Shown: positions 1,083 to 31,304 of the stretch, one piece after another
Numbering within the stretch: the first letter of the stretch is position 1
How the letters are laid out: each line of letters opens with the position of its first letter
From: Acetothermia bacterium 64_32
GTDB taxonomy: Bacteria; Bipolaricaulota; Bipolaricaulia; Bipolaricaulales; Bipolaricaulaceae
Reading direction: 5' to 3'
Length of the DNA stretch: 64,000 bases
Assembly: GCA_001508155.1 (NCBI GenBank)
Contig: LGFI01000008.1
Location: forward strand, 33,674 to 97,673
The notes under the pieces: model-generated
What the model was told of the DNA's origin: nothing
What the model saw: only the letters and a program-made list of their open reading frames with translations
Database searches by the model: none
Program-made: the position numbers and the translations under genes

Positions 1083-2672
1083 GTGAGAAAAATTGGGTTG
1101 TTATTGCTAGCAGTTGGGGTATTGGGATTGCTTTCCTTGGGCCAAGAGCCCCGGTATGGCGGCACGCTTGTGATCGGTTCTTCACAGACGTTTAAGGACT
1201 TAGATCCTCGGATTTGCAACGATGTATACTCAATGTACGTTATCAACGCTGTATTTGACGAGCTGCTCAGCCTGGACCCGGACACCCTGAAGCCCGCGCC
1301 GTATGTAGCCAAGTCCTGGGAGATCTCCGAGGACGGGGCGGAGATCACCTTCTACCTCCACGAGGGGATCAAGTTCCACAACGGTGAGCCTCTCACCGCG
1401 GAGGACGTGGCGTTTACCTTCAACTGGATCGCGGACCCGGCTAATGCCTCTCCCAACCAGACCGAGTTCGAGTGGCTCCAGGAGGTTGTGGTAATCGACG
1501 ATTACACGGTGAAGTTCATCACCAAGCCCGATTGGGCACCGTATGCGCCAGCCCTTTTGGGCGAGAACTACGCCATCGTGCCCAAGGACACGGTCTTGGA
1601 AATGGGCGATGAGGAGTTCAACCTGAACCCAGTGGGGTCTGGCCCCTTCAAGTTCGTGGAGTGGAAGCGGGGCGATCACATCACCGTGGTCCGCAACGAG
1701 GACTACTGGCTAACCAAGCCCTACCTGGAGAAGATCATCTTCCGTCCCATCCCGAATCTGGCCACCATGATGCTGGAGCTTGAGACAGGCGGCATCGACA
1801 TCGCTGACAACGTGCCGGCTCAGGATGCCAAGCGGTTCATGGAGAACCCGGACCTGGGCGTGGTGGTTCAGCAGATCCCGAGCCTCTCCTATTTCTACCT
1901 GGGATTCAATATGTCCAAGCCCCCCGGCAACGACATCCGGTTCCGCAAGGCCGTTTACATGTCCTTCGACACCACGGCTGCGGTCGACGCGGTATTCCAG
2001 AACCTCACCGGCCTCCGTGCTTATGGGGCCGTGCCCCCTGCCCTTTGGGCCAACGACCGGGAGTTCCTTAAGACCATCGCCCTCTCGGAGGACGACGAGC
2101 AGGCGAAGGCCCTGTTCGACGAGCTCAAGGCCGAGGGGGTCATCCCGCCGGGCTACAAGGCGGTCATCTACTGTCCACCTGACCCTCGGCGGGTCCAGAT
2201 CTCCACGGTGGTGGCCACCAACCTAATCGAAAACGGAATCGACGCCGAGGTGCAGCCGCTTGAGTGGGGGCCTTACCTCGATCTCCTTTATCGGAGTGAG
2301 GAGAAGCCCGAGGGAGAATACGACATGTACGTGATCGGCTGGTCCGGCAGCCCCGATCCTAACGCGTTCTTGTATTACCTTTTCACCAGCGAGAATGCCA
2401 CGGTGGGCACTGCCAACAACTTCTCCTTCTACATGAACGAGCGGGTGGACACCCTGATCAAGTACGCGGGGACTACCCTCGACCCGGATATCCGGGAGCC
2501 GCTTTACGTTGCCGCCCAGCGCATCATCTTCAAGGACATCGTCCACATCCCGCTTTATCACTACATCGAGACCCGGGGGGTCAGGACGAGGGTGCACGAT
2601 TATCGGGTCAGCCCCACGGCGGCCATGGACATCGTGAGCCCGTTCAACAACGTCTGGGTTGAAGAGGGCTGA
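1083..2672 (+). CDS. ABC transporter peptide-binding protein (family 5)
   Basis: This 529-residue extracytoplasmic solute-binding protein is of the DppA/OppA type. GTG at 1083 is chosen because AGGAGG at 1071-1076 precedes it and it opens a typical signal peptide (RKIGLLLLAVGVLGLLSL, then GQEPRYGGTL). Family features are the early YGGTL block, LDPRICNDVYSMYVINAVFD, YVAKSWEISEDG with FYLHEGIKFHNGEPLTAEDV, and GSGPFKFVEWKRGD. It should capture an oligopeptide or similar solute and deliver it to the permeases at 2750 and 3713. The substrate cannot be read from sequence. No ATPase gene follows. A 12-bp hairpin separates it from the permeases, which would favour higher expression of the binding protein. 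Confidence 0.93.
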   Translation: MRKIGLLLLAVGVLGLLSLGQEPRYGGTLVIGSSQTFKDLDPRICNDVYSMYVINAVFDELLSLDPDTLKPAPYVAKSWEISEDGAEITFYLHEGIKFHNGEPLTAEDVAFTFNWIADPANASPNQTEFEWLQEVVVIDDYTVKFITKPDWAPYAPALLGENYAIVPKDTVLEMGDEEFNLNPVGSGPFKFVEWKRGDHITVVRNEDYWLTKPYLEKIIFRPIPNLATMMLELETGGIDIADNVPAQDAKRFMENPDLGVVVQQIPSLSYFYLGFNMSKPPGNDIRFRKAVYMSFDTTAAVDAVFQNLTGLRAYGAVPPALWANDREFLKTIALSEDDEQAKALFDELKAEGVIPPGYKAVIYCPPDPRRVQISTVVATNLIENGIDAEVQPLEWGPYLDLLYRSEEKPEGEYDMYVIGWSGSPDPNAFLYYLFTSENATVGTANNFSFYMNERVDTLIKYAGTTLDPDIREPLYVAAQRIIFKDIVHIPLYHYIETRGVRTRVHDYRVSPTAAMDIVSPFNNVWVEEG

Positions 2673-2749: not shown

Positions 2750-3703
2750 ATGCTCGCTTACACGATACGGCGCTTCCTGCAGATGTTCATCGTGCTGTTC
2801 GGCCTTTCCGTCCTGATCTTCGTCATGCTGAAGATGACCCCTGGCGATCCGGCGGTCATCATGGCCGGGCTTGGCGCCACCCCAGAGACCATCCAAGCCA
2901 TCCGCGAGAAATTGGGGCTGGACCGGCCACTGCCTGAGCAGTACTGGCGGCTGATCTCGGGGCTCTTCAACGGGCAAATCCGGGCAGTGACCTACCATAC
3001 CAGCGTCTGGGGGATCATCTTCGAGCGGCTTCCCGCCACGGTAGAGCTGGGGATCTTCGCTTTGATCATCGCCTTGTTGGTGTCGATCCCTGCGGGTCTT
3101 TTATCAGCCATCTACAGAAATTCGCCGCTCGATTACGGTGTAACCACCGTAGCCTTGCTTGGCATCTCCACGCCGGTCTTCTGGACCGCCCTCATGCTGA
3201 TGCTTATATTGGGCGTTGTATTCCGCGTCCTTCCCATCTCCGGCAGGGGGGAAACGATCGGGGTCTGGTCTTTCGTAACCTGGGATGGCTTCAGGCACTT
3301 GATCATCCCCTCCCTGGCCCTGTCTTCGGTGCTCATGGCGATGAACGCACGGCTTACCCGAGCCAGCATGCTAGAGGTCATGCGGCAGGAATACATCAAG
3401 ACCGCCCGGGCCAAGGGGTTACGAGAGTGGGTGGTTATCGTCAAGCACGCGTTCCGCAACGCCATGGCCCCGGTTTTGACCAACGTGGGCCTTCAGATAA
3501 GCACCATATTCGCGGGCGCGGTGCTTACCGAGACCACCACCGCCTGGCCGGGGATGGGGCGGCTCATGGTGGAGGCCATAAACCGCAGGGACGAGGCCGT
3601 GGTACTGGGCCTTGCCCTTTTTTTGGCTGCCACAGCTCAGGTTGGGTACTTGATAGTTGACCTGATGTATGCCTGGATAGATCCGAGGATCACTTATGAT
3701 TGA
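2750..3703 (+). CDS. ABC transporter permease, DppB type
   Basis: This 317-residue inner-membrane permease has the DppB/OppB layout. It opens with a TM helix after MLAYTIRRFLQMF, has a periplasmic loop with GDPAVIMAGLGATPETI, then five more helices. The EAA coupling loop reads EYIKTARAKGLREWVV at about residues 212-227, followed by HAFRNAMAPVL. The C-terminus is the family-typical DLMYAWIDPRITYD. It should pair with the permease at 3713 and the binding protein at 1083. The EAA loop is intact, so it is expected to dock on ATPases encoded elsewhere. Confidence 0.93.
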   Translation: MLAYTIRRFLQMFIVLFGLSVLIFVMLKMTPGDPAVIMAGLGATPETIQAIREKLGLDRPLPEQYWRLISGLFNGQIRAVTYHTSVWGIIFERLPATVELGIFALIIALLVSIPAGLLSAIYRNSPLDYGVTTVALLGISTPVFWTALMLMLILGVVFRVLPISGRGETIGVWSFVTWDGFRHLIIPSLALSSVLMAMNARLTRASMLEVMRQEYIKTARAKGLREWVVIVKHAFRNAMAPVLTNVGLQISTIFAGAVLTETTTAWPGMGRLMVEAINRRDEAVVLGLALFLAATAQVGYLIVDLMYAWIDPRITYD

Positions 3704-24696: not shown

Positions 24697-25353
24697 ATGG
24701 GCCGGTTGGGGGAGCTGGCGGCCAGGCTCAGGGAGCGGGATGACCCCGCCCTGCGGGCCGAGCTCATCCGGCTCGGGGAGGAGCTGGTAAGGGAGGTGGC
24801 AGAGGAGTTCGCCGGCTGTGGGCTTCCACAAAAGGAGCTGGAGCGGGCCGGGCACCTGGGGCTTTTGAGCGCGGCGTACAACCTGGAGCTCGACCGGGCG
24901 GGGGACTTCGAGACGTTCGCCCGCAACCTAATCCGGGGGGAGATCAGGGGGCACATCCGGGAGAGGTTCCCACCCCCCCAACCCCCACGGTGGCTGCGGC
25001 TCTTGGCAGAGCAGATCGATCGGGCCCACCACGAGCTTTTCCGGGAGCTGGGCCGTCCCCCCACCCTCTCCGAACTGGCTCAGAAGTTGAACCTAACCGA
25101 TGAGGGGCTGAAGGAGGCGTTCAAGGCCCGCGACGCCTTCCTGTACACCTCCCTCTCCCAGGAACACAGGGCCGAGGACCTGCGGCCGGACTTTCACCCC
25201 GAGCGCATCCGGGACAGACACCCCAGCCCGTTCCCCTGGCAGGCCCGCATCCGGCTGGCCCAGGCCCTGGAAAGGCTGTCCGGGCTCTGGTCAAGGCTGG
25301 CAGAGAACATGCTCGGCCTGGAGGAGGACGACCCATGGCCAACCGTTATGTAA
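24697..25353 (+). CDS. Sigma-B/F-like protein lacking region 4
   Basis: This 218-residue protein aligns to SigB/SigF-group sigma factors in region 2 (LERAGHLGLLSAAYNLELDR, FETFARNLIRGEIRGHIRER). It also aligns in region 3 (AHHELFRELGRPPTLSELAQ, KLNLTDEGLKEAFKARDAFL). After region 3 it reads ALERLSGLWSRLAENMLG and stops at 218, so the region 4.2 helix-turn-helix that contacts the -35 box is missing. No alternative frame restores it before the next promoter at 25377. It may act as a core-binding modulator, or with a separate -35-binding partner. The RHH-MshEN regulator gene follows, behind its own promoter and riboswitch. Confidence 0.75.
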   Translation: MGRLGELAARLRERDDPALRAELIRLGEELVREVAEEFAGCGLPQKELERAGHLGLLSAAYNLELDRAGDFETFARNLIRGEIRGHIRERFPPPQPPRWLRLLAEQIDRAHHELFRELGRPPTLSELAQKLNLTDEGLKEAFKARDAFLYTSLSQEHRAEDLRPDFHPERIRDRHPSPFPWQARIRLAQALERLSGLWSRLAENMLGLEEDDPWPTVM

Positions 25354-25376
25354 TGGATATACGGAGGAATGTCCAC

Positions 25377-25405
25377 TTGACAATCCTCTTCGTATGCTTT
25401 AAGGT
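25377..25405 (+). promoter_or_regulatory. Promoter of first c-di-GMP riboswitch
   Basis: A perfect -35 TTGACA (25377-25382), 17 bp and a weak -10 TAAGGT (25400-25405) place the start near 25412, about 11 nt before the aptamer P1 stem. Confidence 0.65.
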
Positions 25406-25422
25406 AGCTTCGCTTAGCAGAC

Positions 25423-25503
25423 ACCCTGAAAAAGGGCAAACCCATCGCAAGGTGGGGGCGCAAAGCTGCGGGCCCTAGGAATGGGTAGCCGGGCTGCCAG
25501 GGT
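25423..25503 (+). ncRNA. Cyclic-di-GMP-I riboswitch (GEMM), copy 1
   Basis: All GEMM-I signatures are present. P1 is ACCCTG (25423-25428) with CAGGGT (25498-25503). The conserved AAAGGGCAAACC is followed by a GNRA hairpin CCCATC-GCAA-GGTGGG. Then come GCGCAAAGC, a variable stem containing GGGCCCTAGG, and the tetraloop-receptor strand GGGTAGCCGGGCTGCC. It binds the second messenger c-di-GMP in the nascent mRNA. Its 3' strand is also the 5' half of a terminator (separate entry), so ligand binding should permit transcription of the RHH-MshEN gene. Confidence 0.95.
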
Positions 25504-25524
25504 AACTCCGGCGGCCCGGTTTTT
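25489..25524 (+). terminator. Riboswitch-controlled intrinsic terminator
   Basis: CCGGGCTGCC (25489-25498) pairs over 10 bp, with one G-T pair, with GGCGGCCCGG (25510-25519). TTTTT follows at 25520-25524. The 5' arm is part of the aptamer core and of P1, so the terminator and the ligand-bound aptamer exclude each other: a transcriptional ON switch. Confidence 0.9.
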
Positions 25525-25551
25525 GGTTGCCGAAAAGGGGAGGTGGAGAGG

Positions 25552-25890
25552 GTGCAGGTGACCATGTACTTCGGGGAGGAGGATCGGTACCTGATAGAGC
25601 TGGTAGACCGGAAGGCGCGGCAGGAGCGCAAGTCGCGGTCGGCGGTGGTGCTTTCCATCCTGGAGGAGCACTTCGAGCGGGAGAAGAGGATCGGGGAGGT
25701 GCTGGTGGACCTGGGGGCGGTGACCCCTCGGCAGGTGGAGGAGGCCCTGGAGCTGCAGAACAGGGCCAAGGGGGCACGGCTTTTGGGGGAGATCCTGCTT
25801 GAGCGGGGGTTCGTGGACGAGAGAGCCCTTACCCGGGCGCTCACCATCCAAGCCCGGTTCAAGGCCCCCGCGGGGCAAAAGAGGGGATGA
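25552..25890 (+). CDS. Ribbon-helix-helix / MshEN fusion: predicted c-di-GMP-responsive DNA-binding regulator
   Basis: This is a 112-residue protein with start GTG 25552, preceded by GGGGAGGTGG; other GTG/ATG codons at 25543, 25558 and 25564 are in frame. Residues 1-45 form a ribbon-helix-helix unit: strand VQVTMYF, helix EEDRYLIELVDRKARQ, helix RSAVVLSILEEHFERE. Residues 46-100 form a two-part MshEN-type module. Part one is RIGEVLVDLGAVTPRQ plus VEEALELQ, matching the 24-residue R-x-G...L...G...L..Q pattern exactly. Part two is LLGEILLERGFVDERA plus LTRALTIQ, with Leu at the first Arg position and Arg one residue earlier. MshEN binds c-di-GMP in MshE-type ATPases. It therefore looks like a transcription factor whose DNA binding responds to the same ligand as its riboswitch. 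Confidence 0.85.
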   Translation: MQVTMYFGEEDRYLIELVDRKARQERKSRSAVVLSILEEHFEREKRIGEVLVDLGAVTPRQVEEALELQNRAKGARLLGEILLERGFVDERALTRALTIQARFKAPAGQKRG

Positions 25891-25931
25891 AAACCGCGTT
25901 AAGGGGGTGAAAGAAGGCGGAAAAGCTGATT

Positions 25932-26027
25932 GGCGGACGAAAGGGCAAACCCGGGGCGACCCGGGGGCGCAAAGCCAACGGGCCTCAAAAACCGAAATAC
26001 CTGAGGTGGCCGGGCTGCCGAAACGCC
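25932..26027 (+). ncRNA. Cyclic-di-GMP-I riboswitch (GEMM), copy 2
   Basis: The second aptamer starts 42 nt after the RHH-MshEN stop. It has P1 GGCG (25932-25935) with CGCC (26024-26027), AAAGGGCAAACC, a GNRA hairpin CCCGGG-GCGA-CCCGGG, GCGCAAAGCC, a stem with GGGCCTCA and TGAGGTGGCC, then GCCGGGCTGCC. No T-run terminator follows. Instead its 3' end runs into an anti-Shine-Dalgarno sequence, so the output is translation of the gene at 26082. It is probably on the same mRNA as copy 1. Confidence 0.94.
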
Positions 26028-26079
26028 TCCTAAACGGGTTTTAAACCTAGAAAACCGCGAAACATTTAGGAGGTGTTTC
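26020..26079 (+). promoter_or_regulatory. Shine-Dalgarno-sequestering hairpin controlled by riboswitch 2
   Basis: GAAACGCCTCCTAAA (26020-26034) is complementary over 15 bp, with one G-T pair, to TTTAGGAGGTGTTTC (26065-26079), which contains the ribosome-binding site of ATG 26082. The 5' arm includes the P1 3' strand CGCC (26024-26027). Ligand-stabilised P1 would free the ribosome site: a translational ON switch. Confidence 0.88.
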
Positions 26080-26081
26080 AC

Positions 26082-26648
26082 ATGCGGAAACTTTGGGTAC
26101 TGGGAGTATTTGGAGCGCTGGCCATGCTGCCGTTTGCGGCCCTGGCCGACACCGGGGATGCCACCTCGGCCACCTTGACACTCTCAGGTGTGATCTACAT
26201 CACGGTCACCGACGAATGGGAGGACATGGAGATCGATCAGGACGCAATTGCGGGAATGGCGGGCAGCTACTTCACCTGGGGTAGCATCACCGTCAAAGTC
26301 AAGGCCATGACCGATTACAAAGTTTGGAGCGGCTACTTCACCGATCTTACAGATGAGGCGACGGAGTTTGAGAACGAGGACCACGTGGTGGCCCTGGACG
26401 ATGGGATCGAGTACTGGCTCCCCTACAACAGCAGCTTCGAGTCCATCACCAACCCGACCCAGGGCTTTGACTGGACGGGCGGGTTCGGCACGGACATGGT
26501 GACCCTGTTCACCGGGGAGAACAACATGCCCGGCGGTGATGAGAAGACCTACACGGGCAAGCTCGACCCATCCAACCTGGGGGATAGAACAGCCAACGAG
26601 ACAATCCAGTTCACCATCGTGTTCGTGGTGGAGGATACCTCCATTTAA
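26082..26648 (+). CDS. Secreted beta-sandwich protein, candidate fibre subunit
   Basis: This 188-residue protein starts at ATG 26082, with AGGAGGTG 6 bp upstream. The signal peptide is MRKLWVLGVFGALAMLPFA with cleavage near LA-DTGDA. The mature N-terminus ADTGDATSATLTLSG is shared with the next protein (ADTGDAVTATLIILGS). The C-terminal 28 residues, with LGDRTANETIQFTIVFVVED, match the end of the protein at 28283 (LGDRDAGDVIRFTVHVTVSD), as do upstream strands. These shared blocks suggest subunits of one surface structure, possibly assembled through the N-terminal strand. No named family is recognised. It is directly under translational control of c-di-GMP riboswitch 2. Confidence 0.8.
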   Translation: MRKLWVLGVFGALAMLPFAALADTGDATSATLTLSGVIYITVTDEWEDMEIDQDAIAGMAGSYFTWGSITVKVKAMTDYKVWSGYFTDLTDEATEFENEDHVVALDDGIEYWLPYNSSFESITNPTQGFDWTGGFGTDMVTLFTGENNMPGGDEKTYTGKLDPSNLGDRTANETIQFTIVFVVEDTSI

Positions 26649-31223: not shown

Positions 31224-31304
31224 CCTCTGAAAAAGGGCAAAGCCGTCGTGAGGCGGTGACGCAAAGCCGCGGGCCTCTTGCTGAGGCCGCCGGGTTGCCA
31301 GAGG
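31224..31304 (+). ncRNA. Cyclic-di-GMP-I riboswitch (GEMM), copy 3
   Basis: P1 CCTCTG (31224-31229) pairs with CAGAGG (31299-31304). Inside are AAAGGGCAAAGCC, a hairpin capped by GTGA, GACGCAAAGCC, a short stem GGGCCTC/GAGGCC and GCCGGGTTGCC. It precedes the DUF2334 gene by about 300 nt. The expression platform is not obvious, so ON or OFF behaviour cannot be stated. Confidence 0.92.

Follow-up and report, generated by a model that had tools for sequence, protein, structure and literature searches.

Three predicted sensors of one second messenger, c-di-GMP, lie next to each other in a stretch of DNA from an uncultured Bipolaricaulota-like bacterium, which raises the question of whether they form a circuit or are mere neighbours. 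The window, i.e. the whole stretch of 64,000 nucleotides that was analyzed, is part of contig C31 of a genome (G000) of 1.81 Mb in 33 contigs that is 92% complete. As the original prediction had it, an aptamer, a gene for a predicted ribbon-helix-helix (RHH)-MshEN protein and another aptamer follow each other in this order (Table 1), which is conserved in relatives. We read the locus as a relay for c-di-GMP. A single transcript would provide three likely sensors, the regulator being gated by an antitermination riboswitch and a predicted secreted fibre subunit by a translational one, and we put the probability of this reading at about two in three. Its computed basis comprises the aptamers and their contact residues, the mutually exclusive helices, the homology to MshEN, the conserved order, the split of terminators between the two aptamers, and a promoter element.

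Table 1. Features of the locus and of the third aptamer, in window coordinates
Feature	Position	Strand	Basis or remark
Candidate operator, GGAGGAATGTCC	25363..25374	+	Inferred; version in relatives, GGACNNATGTCC; two bases separate it from the -35
Candidate promoter, TTGACA, 17 nt, TAAGGT	25377..25405	+	Read from the sequence
Aptamer 1 (upstream), c-di-GMP-I type, G20/A47/C92	25426..25502	+	Rfam cmscan and alignment
Terminator hairpin and TTTTT	25489..25524	+	Overlaps P3/P1 3' strand of aptamer 1
Predicted RHH-MshEN_N regulator gene, GTG start, 112 aa	25552..25890	+	RHH, about residues 1-45; MshEN_N, 46-100
Aptamer 2 (downstream), c-di-GMP-I type, G20/A47/C92	25935..26023	+	Rfam cmscan and alignment
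Anti-SD strand, AAACGCCTCCTAAA	26021..26034	+	Overlaps P1 3' strand of aptamer 2
SD strand, TTTAGGAGGTGTTT	26065..26078	+	Pairs with the anti-SD strand
Predicted secreted protein gene, 188 aa	26082..26648	+	Fibre-like beta sandwich, weak match
Third c-di-GMP-I type aptamer	31227..31303	+	About 300 bases 5' of a DUF2334 gene

Aptamers, likely ligand and expression platforms

In a cmscan search of the window against Rfam, the three aptamers of Table 1 scored 64.8, 59.3 and 59.9 bits, respectively, with RF03167 (c-di-GMP-I-GGC; gathering cut-off, 59 bits), which is the best match of its clan for each of them. The original prediction had named RF01051, the plain c-di-GMP-I model, as a check; with this model the scores were 62.9, 57.9 and 63.0 bits, all above the gathering cut-off of 35 bits. 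The whole genome contains eight aptamer matches with an E-value of 0.001 or better, five of which reach the cut-off of RF03167 and seven that of RF01051. We take GGC in the name of RF03167 to denote G20-G47-C92, a meaning that fits the consensus of the model (GCGAA). Among 43 aligned aptamers, position 47 is A throughout, so that the G47 of RF03167 is absent and a specificity of the GGC-variant type is rejected. J2/3 reads AAA and positions 92 and 93 are C in all 43, and position 20 is G in 41. Helices are conserved as well, with 13 of 20 pairs changed on both sides and 96.7% of the cells paired, as compared to 83.8% after shuffling. Since all three aptamers of the window have kept G20, A47 and C92, they share these residues with ordinary c-di-GMP-I riboswitches despite Rfam's GGC label (ligand-contact roles as given in the available text of PMC3764141 and PMC4744006).

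Three GGDEF domains are encoded in the genome, each with an Asp, the canonical residue, 26 residues before the GGDEF Asp; according to the available text of PMC6456294, this position is Ser in the cGAMP-making Hypr enzymes. Taken together, the contact residues, the RF01051 scores and the canonical Asp in all three GGDEF domains point to c-di-GMP as the likely ligand of the window aptamers. Signalling by cGAMP is disfavoured by G20 in these aptamers and by the canonical Asp. No EAL phosphodiesterase was found in this 92% complete genome. The two aligned aptamers with A rather than G at position 20 are the upstream one of L033 (G030, 1863-1970) and the downstream one of L038 (G029, 2797-2881); A at this position is a mark of cGAMP riboswitches.

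The P1 helix of aptamer 1 is formed by ACCCTG (25423-25428) and CAGGGT (25498-25503). A hairpin of -24.0 kcal/mol (CCGGGCUGCC...GGCGGCCCGG, 25489-25519), followed by TTTTT (25520-25524), has the 3' strand of P3 as its 5' arm and takes up the 3' strand of P1 on its loop side. When folded alone, a 95-nt RNA forms P1; a longer RNA forms the terminator. Because both structures need the same 3' strand, they are mutually exclusive, and bound ligand should permit read-through. The original prediction of an aptamer with a terminator is thus borne out by Rfam scores above cut-off and by a hairpin that excludes the aptamer fold. A simple consensus scan of the window missed this terminator as well as the promoter argued for here; its single promoter-like and five terminator-like matches were no more than those in shuffles.

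The anti-SD strand at the 3' end of aptamer 2 pairs with the Shine-Dalgarno (SD) strand across all 14 bases, including one G-U pair, and the 3' strand of P1 (CGCC) falls inside it, so that ligand should again switch expression on, in this case of the secreted-protein gene. The unpaired probability of the SD is 0.00 in the free fold, as compared to 0.87 when aptamer 2 retains its strand. This 14-bp stem, mutually exclusive with the aptamer fold, agrees with the SD sequestration that had been proposed. The 188-aa product of the gene has no Pfam match at E 1; its fold weakly matches the beta sandwich of TasA-type and chaperone-usher fibre subunits, and it is predicted to be a secreted fibre or adhesin protein.

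The RHH-MshEN_N protein and its candidate operator

The gene between the aptamers is predicted to code for a protein in which an RHH domain is fused to a c-di-GMP-binding module of the MshEN_N type. No Pfam family scored above its cut-off for the protein (RHH_1, E 0.033), and Pfam MshEN (PF05157) had no match in the whole genome. Sequence matches in the PDB comprised PilF, PilB and MshE, the best at 4.9e-15 with phmmer and at 2.1e-21 with the family profile; fold matches likewise supported the MshEN part, including the four-helix fold of MshEN_N. The MshEN domain originally placed in the middle protein is supported by these sequence and fold matches, though without a Pfam match. For the RHH part only weak matches were obtained, with RHH antitoxins among the weak fold matches. 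A toxin-antitoxin reading of the gene is disfavoured, as the next gene lacks a Pfam match (E 1) and its product has a fibre-like fold.

Two 24-residue MshEN motifs are present, and all 45 sequences compared keep the conserved Gly and Gln in each of them. The first residues, Arg in motif I (R...Q) and Leu in motif II (L...Q), both lie within the R/K/L of the extended consensus; the relaxed motif of 2016 matches motif I and misses motif II at its first residue only. A start at position 25543, nine bases further upstream, had been proposed and was not borne out, since the codon aligned with GTG 25552 is ATG or GTG in all 46 copies compared. The closest named relative belongs to a Candidatus Bipolaricaulota MAG (66% identity); the other two matches of the same search, from Planctomycetota, cover only residues 42-105, i.e. 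the MshEN part. Among the 120 of 147 homologues listed, all four with organism-bearing source names are from Bipolaricaulota. The genome contains a second RHH-MshEN gene (L090, contig C3, 2947-3435) with a downstream aptamer only; a stretch upstream of it, AAAGGCAAACCGATGG, looks like a decayed aptamer. In L086 (G015, 1674-1916, minus strand), an 81-aa version has only one of the 24-residue motifs of MshEN behind its RHH part, a form that recombination between the two motifs might produce and in which dimerization could restore the site.

At the position of the window promoter, relatives have TTGACA together with a -10 of the TATA type. In family f1, the promoters upstream of aptamer 1 share the near-palindrome GGACNNATGTCC beside TTGACA, the left half of which is imperfect in the window copy (GGAGG). 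A post hoc search of 40 f1 genomes with GACNNATGTCCNCTTGACA, allowing up to two mismatches, returned 41 matches, as compared to nine for the reversed control. An RHH-MshEN gene follows within 250 nt downstream for 20 of the 41, and for 16 of the 18 with at most one mismatch. The core regular expression was found in 20 of 78 scanned promoters, all of them f1 and some near-copies, and the core alone was not enriched within the window. In four of the 20 (L013, L018, L023 and L097) it lies further from the -35, and such variable spacing speaks for a site distinct from the core promoter. Two strong matches occur elsewhere, in G024 and G040, the latter without a clear target. The G024 match (L154, 1501-1519), a perfect operator and -35, precedes by about 50 bases a gene for a 137-aa predicted secreted protein, possibly another target of the regulator.

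In relatives, the candidate operator lies at the promoter of the regulator gene itself; this site, which did not form part of the original prediction, points to autoregulation as well. Since the site ends two bases before the -35, it could suit an activator or a repressor; we lean towards activation. In the absence of c-di-GMP, the 3' strand of aptamer 1 would go into the terminator (25489-25524) and RNA polymerase would stop, and the SD of the secreted-protein gene would be masked by the 14-bp stem in any RNA that results from read-through. In its presence, aptamer 1 would fold, the polymerase would continue, and the small RHH-MshEN_N protein would be made. The regulator, likely as a dimer with c-di-GMP on MshEN_N, would bind to the promoter of its own gene, immediately 5' of the -35, at a site that in family f1 is probably the shared near-palindrome, and bound aptamer 2 would retake its P1 strand from the anti-SD, allowing the fibre or adhesin gene to be translated. 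We infer the ligand of this relay, its ON direction, the match between operator and protein, the choice between activation and repression, and the single transcript. The locus may represent the multi-level "feed-forward" circuit that was originally proposed. A more specific reading, which we hold tentatively and give slightly less than an even chance, is that of a phylum-specific cassette, in which the riboswitch-gated RHH-MshEN_N protein, as a member of a new class of c-di-GMP-dependent transcription factors, would activate its own promoter when c-di-GMP is bound. The second riboswitch would make the production of the fibre or adhesin depend on the messenger once more, giving an AND gate in which RNA and protein sensors read one ligand three times.

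Conservation and competing explanations

Across the phylum, 93 regulator copies from 68 genomes were compared, with flanks taken from the stronger, full matches. These include L087, which is cut by a contig end, the second copy of L083, which has in-frame stops, and the single-motif version of L086; L068 was left out of the tally as it is the same contig as L099, with identical length and coordinates. Aptamers were counted from 25 bits upwards, leaving out a 16.9-bit match at L081. The aptamer-regulator-aptamer sandwich is present in 39 of the 93 copies, corresponding to 36 of 100 phylum genomes and 15 genera. In the first 40 genomes, an aptamer of 25 bits or more was recounted within 400 nt upstream of 27 of 48 copies, as compared to about 0.03 expected by a rough estimate; the gene is associated with an upstream aptamer more often than by chance. 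The regulator tree (89 rows) has many poorly resolved forks. Platforms were analyzed in 35 of the 39 sandwiches, i.e. all except both L083 copies, L116 and L130. Sixteen of the 35 downstream aptamers and none of the 35 upstream ones have CCTCC in their 3' half, and by a simple test, which was computable for 29 downstream cases, SD release was >0.3 in 13. We regard the predicted translational role of the downstream aptamer as firm for the window and, because of the latter proportion, as only moderate for the relatives.

If each c-di-GMP-controlled gene had its own aptamer, the cluster would be a set of independent riboswitch genes without any circuit. Contig C1 of the same genome, which has the order aptamer, secreted gene, aptamer, secreted gene, is in line with this, as are the S8 protease gene with its own aptamer just upstream in relatives and the 33 of 93 regulator copies that lack any aptamer. 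However, the sandwiches hold two kinds of aptamers in a fixed order that is conserved across 15 genera: in 34 of 35 the upstream aptamer shares sequence with a terminator-like hairpin, as the downstream one does in a single case, the window's own, where the hairpin is a multi-helix structure of -14.0 kcal/mol closed by 4 bp. Moreover, aptamer 2 of the window starts 44 bases past the regulator's stop codon, leaving little space for a separate promoter before it. We therefore consider independence of the genes unlikely.

The protein could also have lost c-di-GMP sensing and be an autoregulatory or nucleoid DNA-binding protein, with only the RNAs acting as sensors. The missing Pfam match would fit such a loss, and so would the presence of Ile for Leu, Ala and Val at three places of motif I in the window; XpsE, an MshEN homologue, lost binding through changed residues, as described in the available text of PMC5013675. 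Against this stand the invariant Gly and Gln of both motifs, and the deviations from the motifs are conservative or allowed in PilF-GSPIIB, so that we deem a loss of sensing distinctly improbable. That the aptamers bind another dinucleotide or have changed specificity, a thought prompted by the c-di-GMP-I-GGC label, would agree with RF03167 being the best clan match and with A at position 20 in two of the 43 relatives' aptamers, but it hardly accords with the kept contact residues in all three window aptamers, with RF01051 scores that are nearly equal and far over the cut-off, or with three canonical GGDEF enzymes; we give it very little credence.

Relation to known systems

If the proposed relay is true, one second messenger is read at transcription by an RNA, at the promoter by a protein and at translation by an RNA, all on one short transcript. 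The locus would then allow testing whether a response is sharpened or delayed when RNA and protein sensors of one ligand are stacked, provide a candidate for a compact fusion that acts as a c-di-GMP transcription factor, and offer a first handle on the role of c-di-GMP in Bipolaricaulota, an uncultured phylum. Its parts, c-di-GMP-I riboswitches, MshEN_N and RHH proteins, are already known; the combination is new relative to the literature searched. With c-di-GMP-I (GEMM-I) riboswitches (RF01051/RF03167) the aptamers share fold, contact residues and scores over cut-off, whereas here a pair, one transcriptional and one translational, surrounds a gene whose product is itself predicted to sense the ligand. 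In Vibrio cholerae, the Vc2 c-di-GMP-I riboswitch is located upstream of tfoY, a regulator gene, and in this respect resembles the cassette; TfoY is not known to bind c-di-GMP, however, and no second aptamer is known to follow tfoY.

The protein of the window shares the two 24-residue motifs, the four-helix module and the key Gly and Gln with the MshEN_N domains of MshE and PilF-GSPIIB, but its motifs are separated by a linker of seven rather than five residues, MshEN_C is missing, and a predicted RHH domain takes the place of the ATPase; the available text of PMC5013675 does not name RHH as a partner domain of MshEN. CdbA of Myxococcus xanthus, an RHH protein, binds c-di-GMP through the RHH domain itself (available text of PMC7156744), whereas here a separate MshEN_N module would do so. 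Tandem c-di-GMP-I riboswitches, as presented in the available text of PMC12452182, likewise put more than one aptamer on a predicted transcript; these are contiguous in one leader, whereas the aptamers of the window have a gene between them and differ in platform. Neither an RHH-MshEN_N fusion nor a riboswitch that gates a protein sensor of its own ligand and is followed by a second aptamer was found in the literature searched, judged mostly by title and abstract; within that scope, the original statement that no precedent was known still stands. The same literature yielded no paper on riboswitches in Bipolaricaulota.

The cassette is directly preceded by an S8 subtilase gene with a c-di-GMP-type aptamer of its own in several f1 genomes (L010, L026, L027 and relatives). 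Contig C1 of the window's genome (L092) has two aptamers on the minus strand (2671-2755 and 3429-3513), each 5' of a gene for a small predicted secreted protein; a partial third aptamer immediately precedes one of them. In the window, a gene for a small sigma-70-like protein (24697-25353), whose region 3 scores above the Pfam cut-off, ends 24 bases 5' of the cassette promoter. The third aptamer of the window is preceded by a TATACT-like promoter, and DUF2334 is deacetylase-like.
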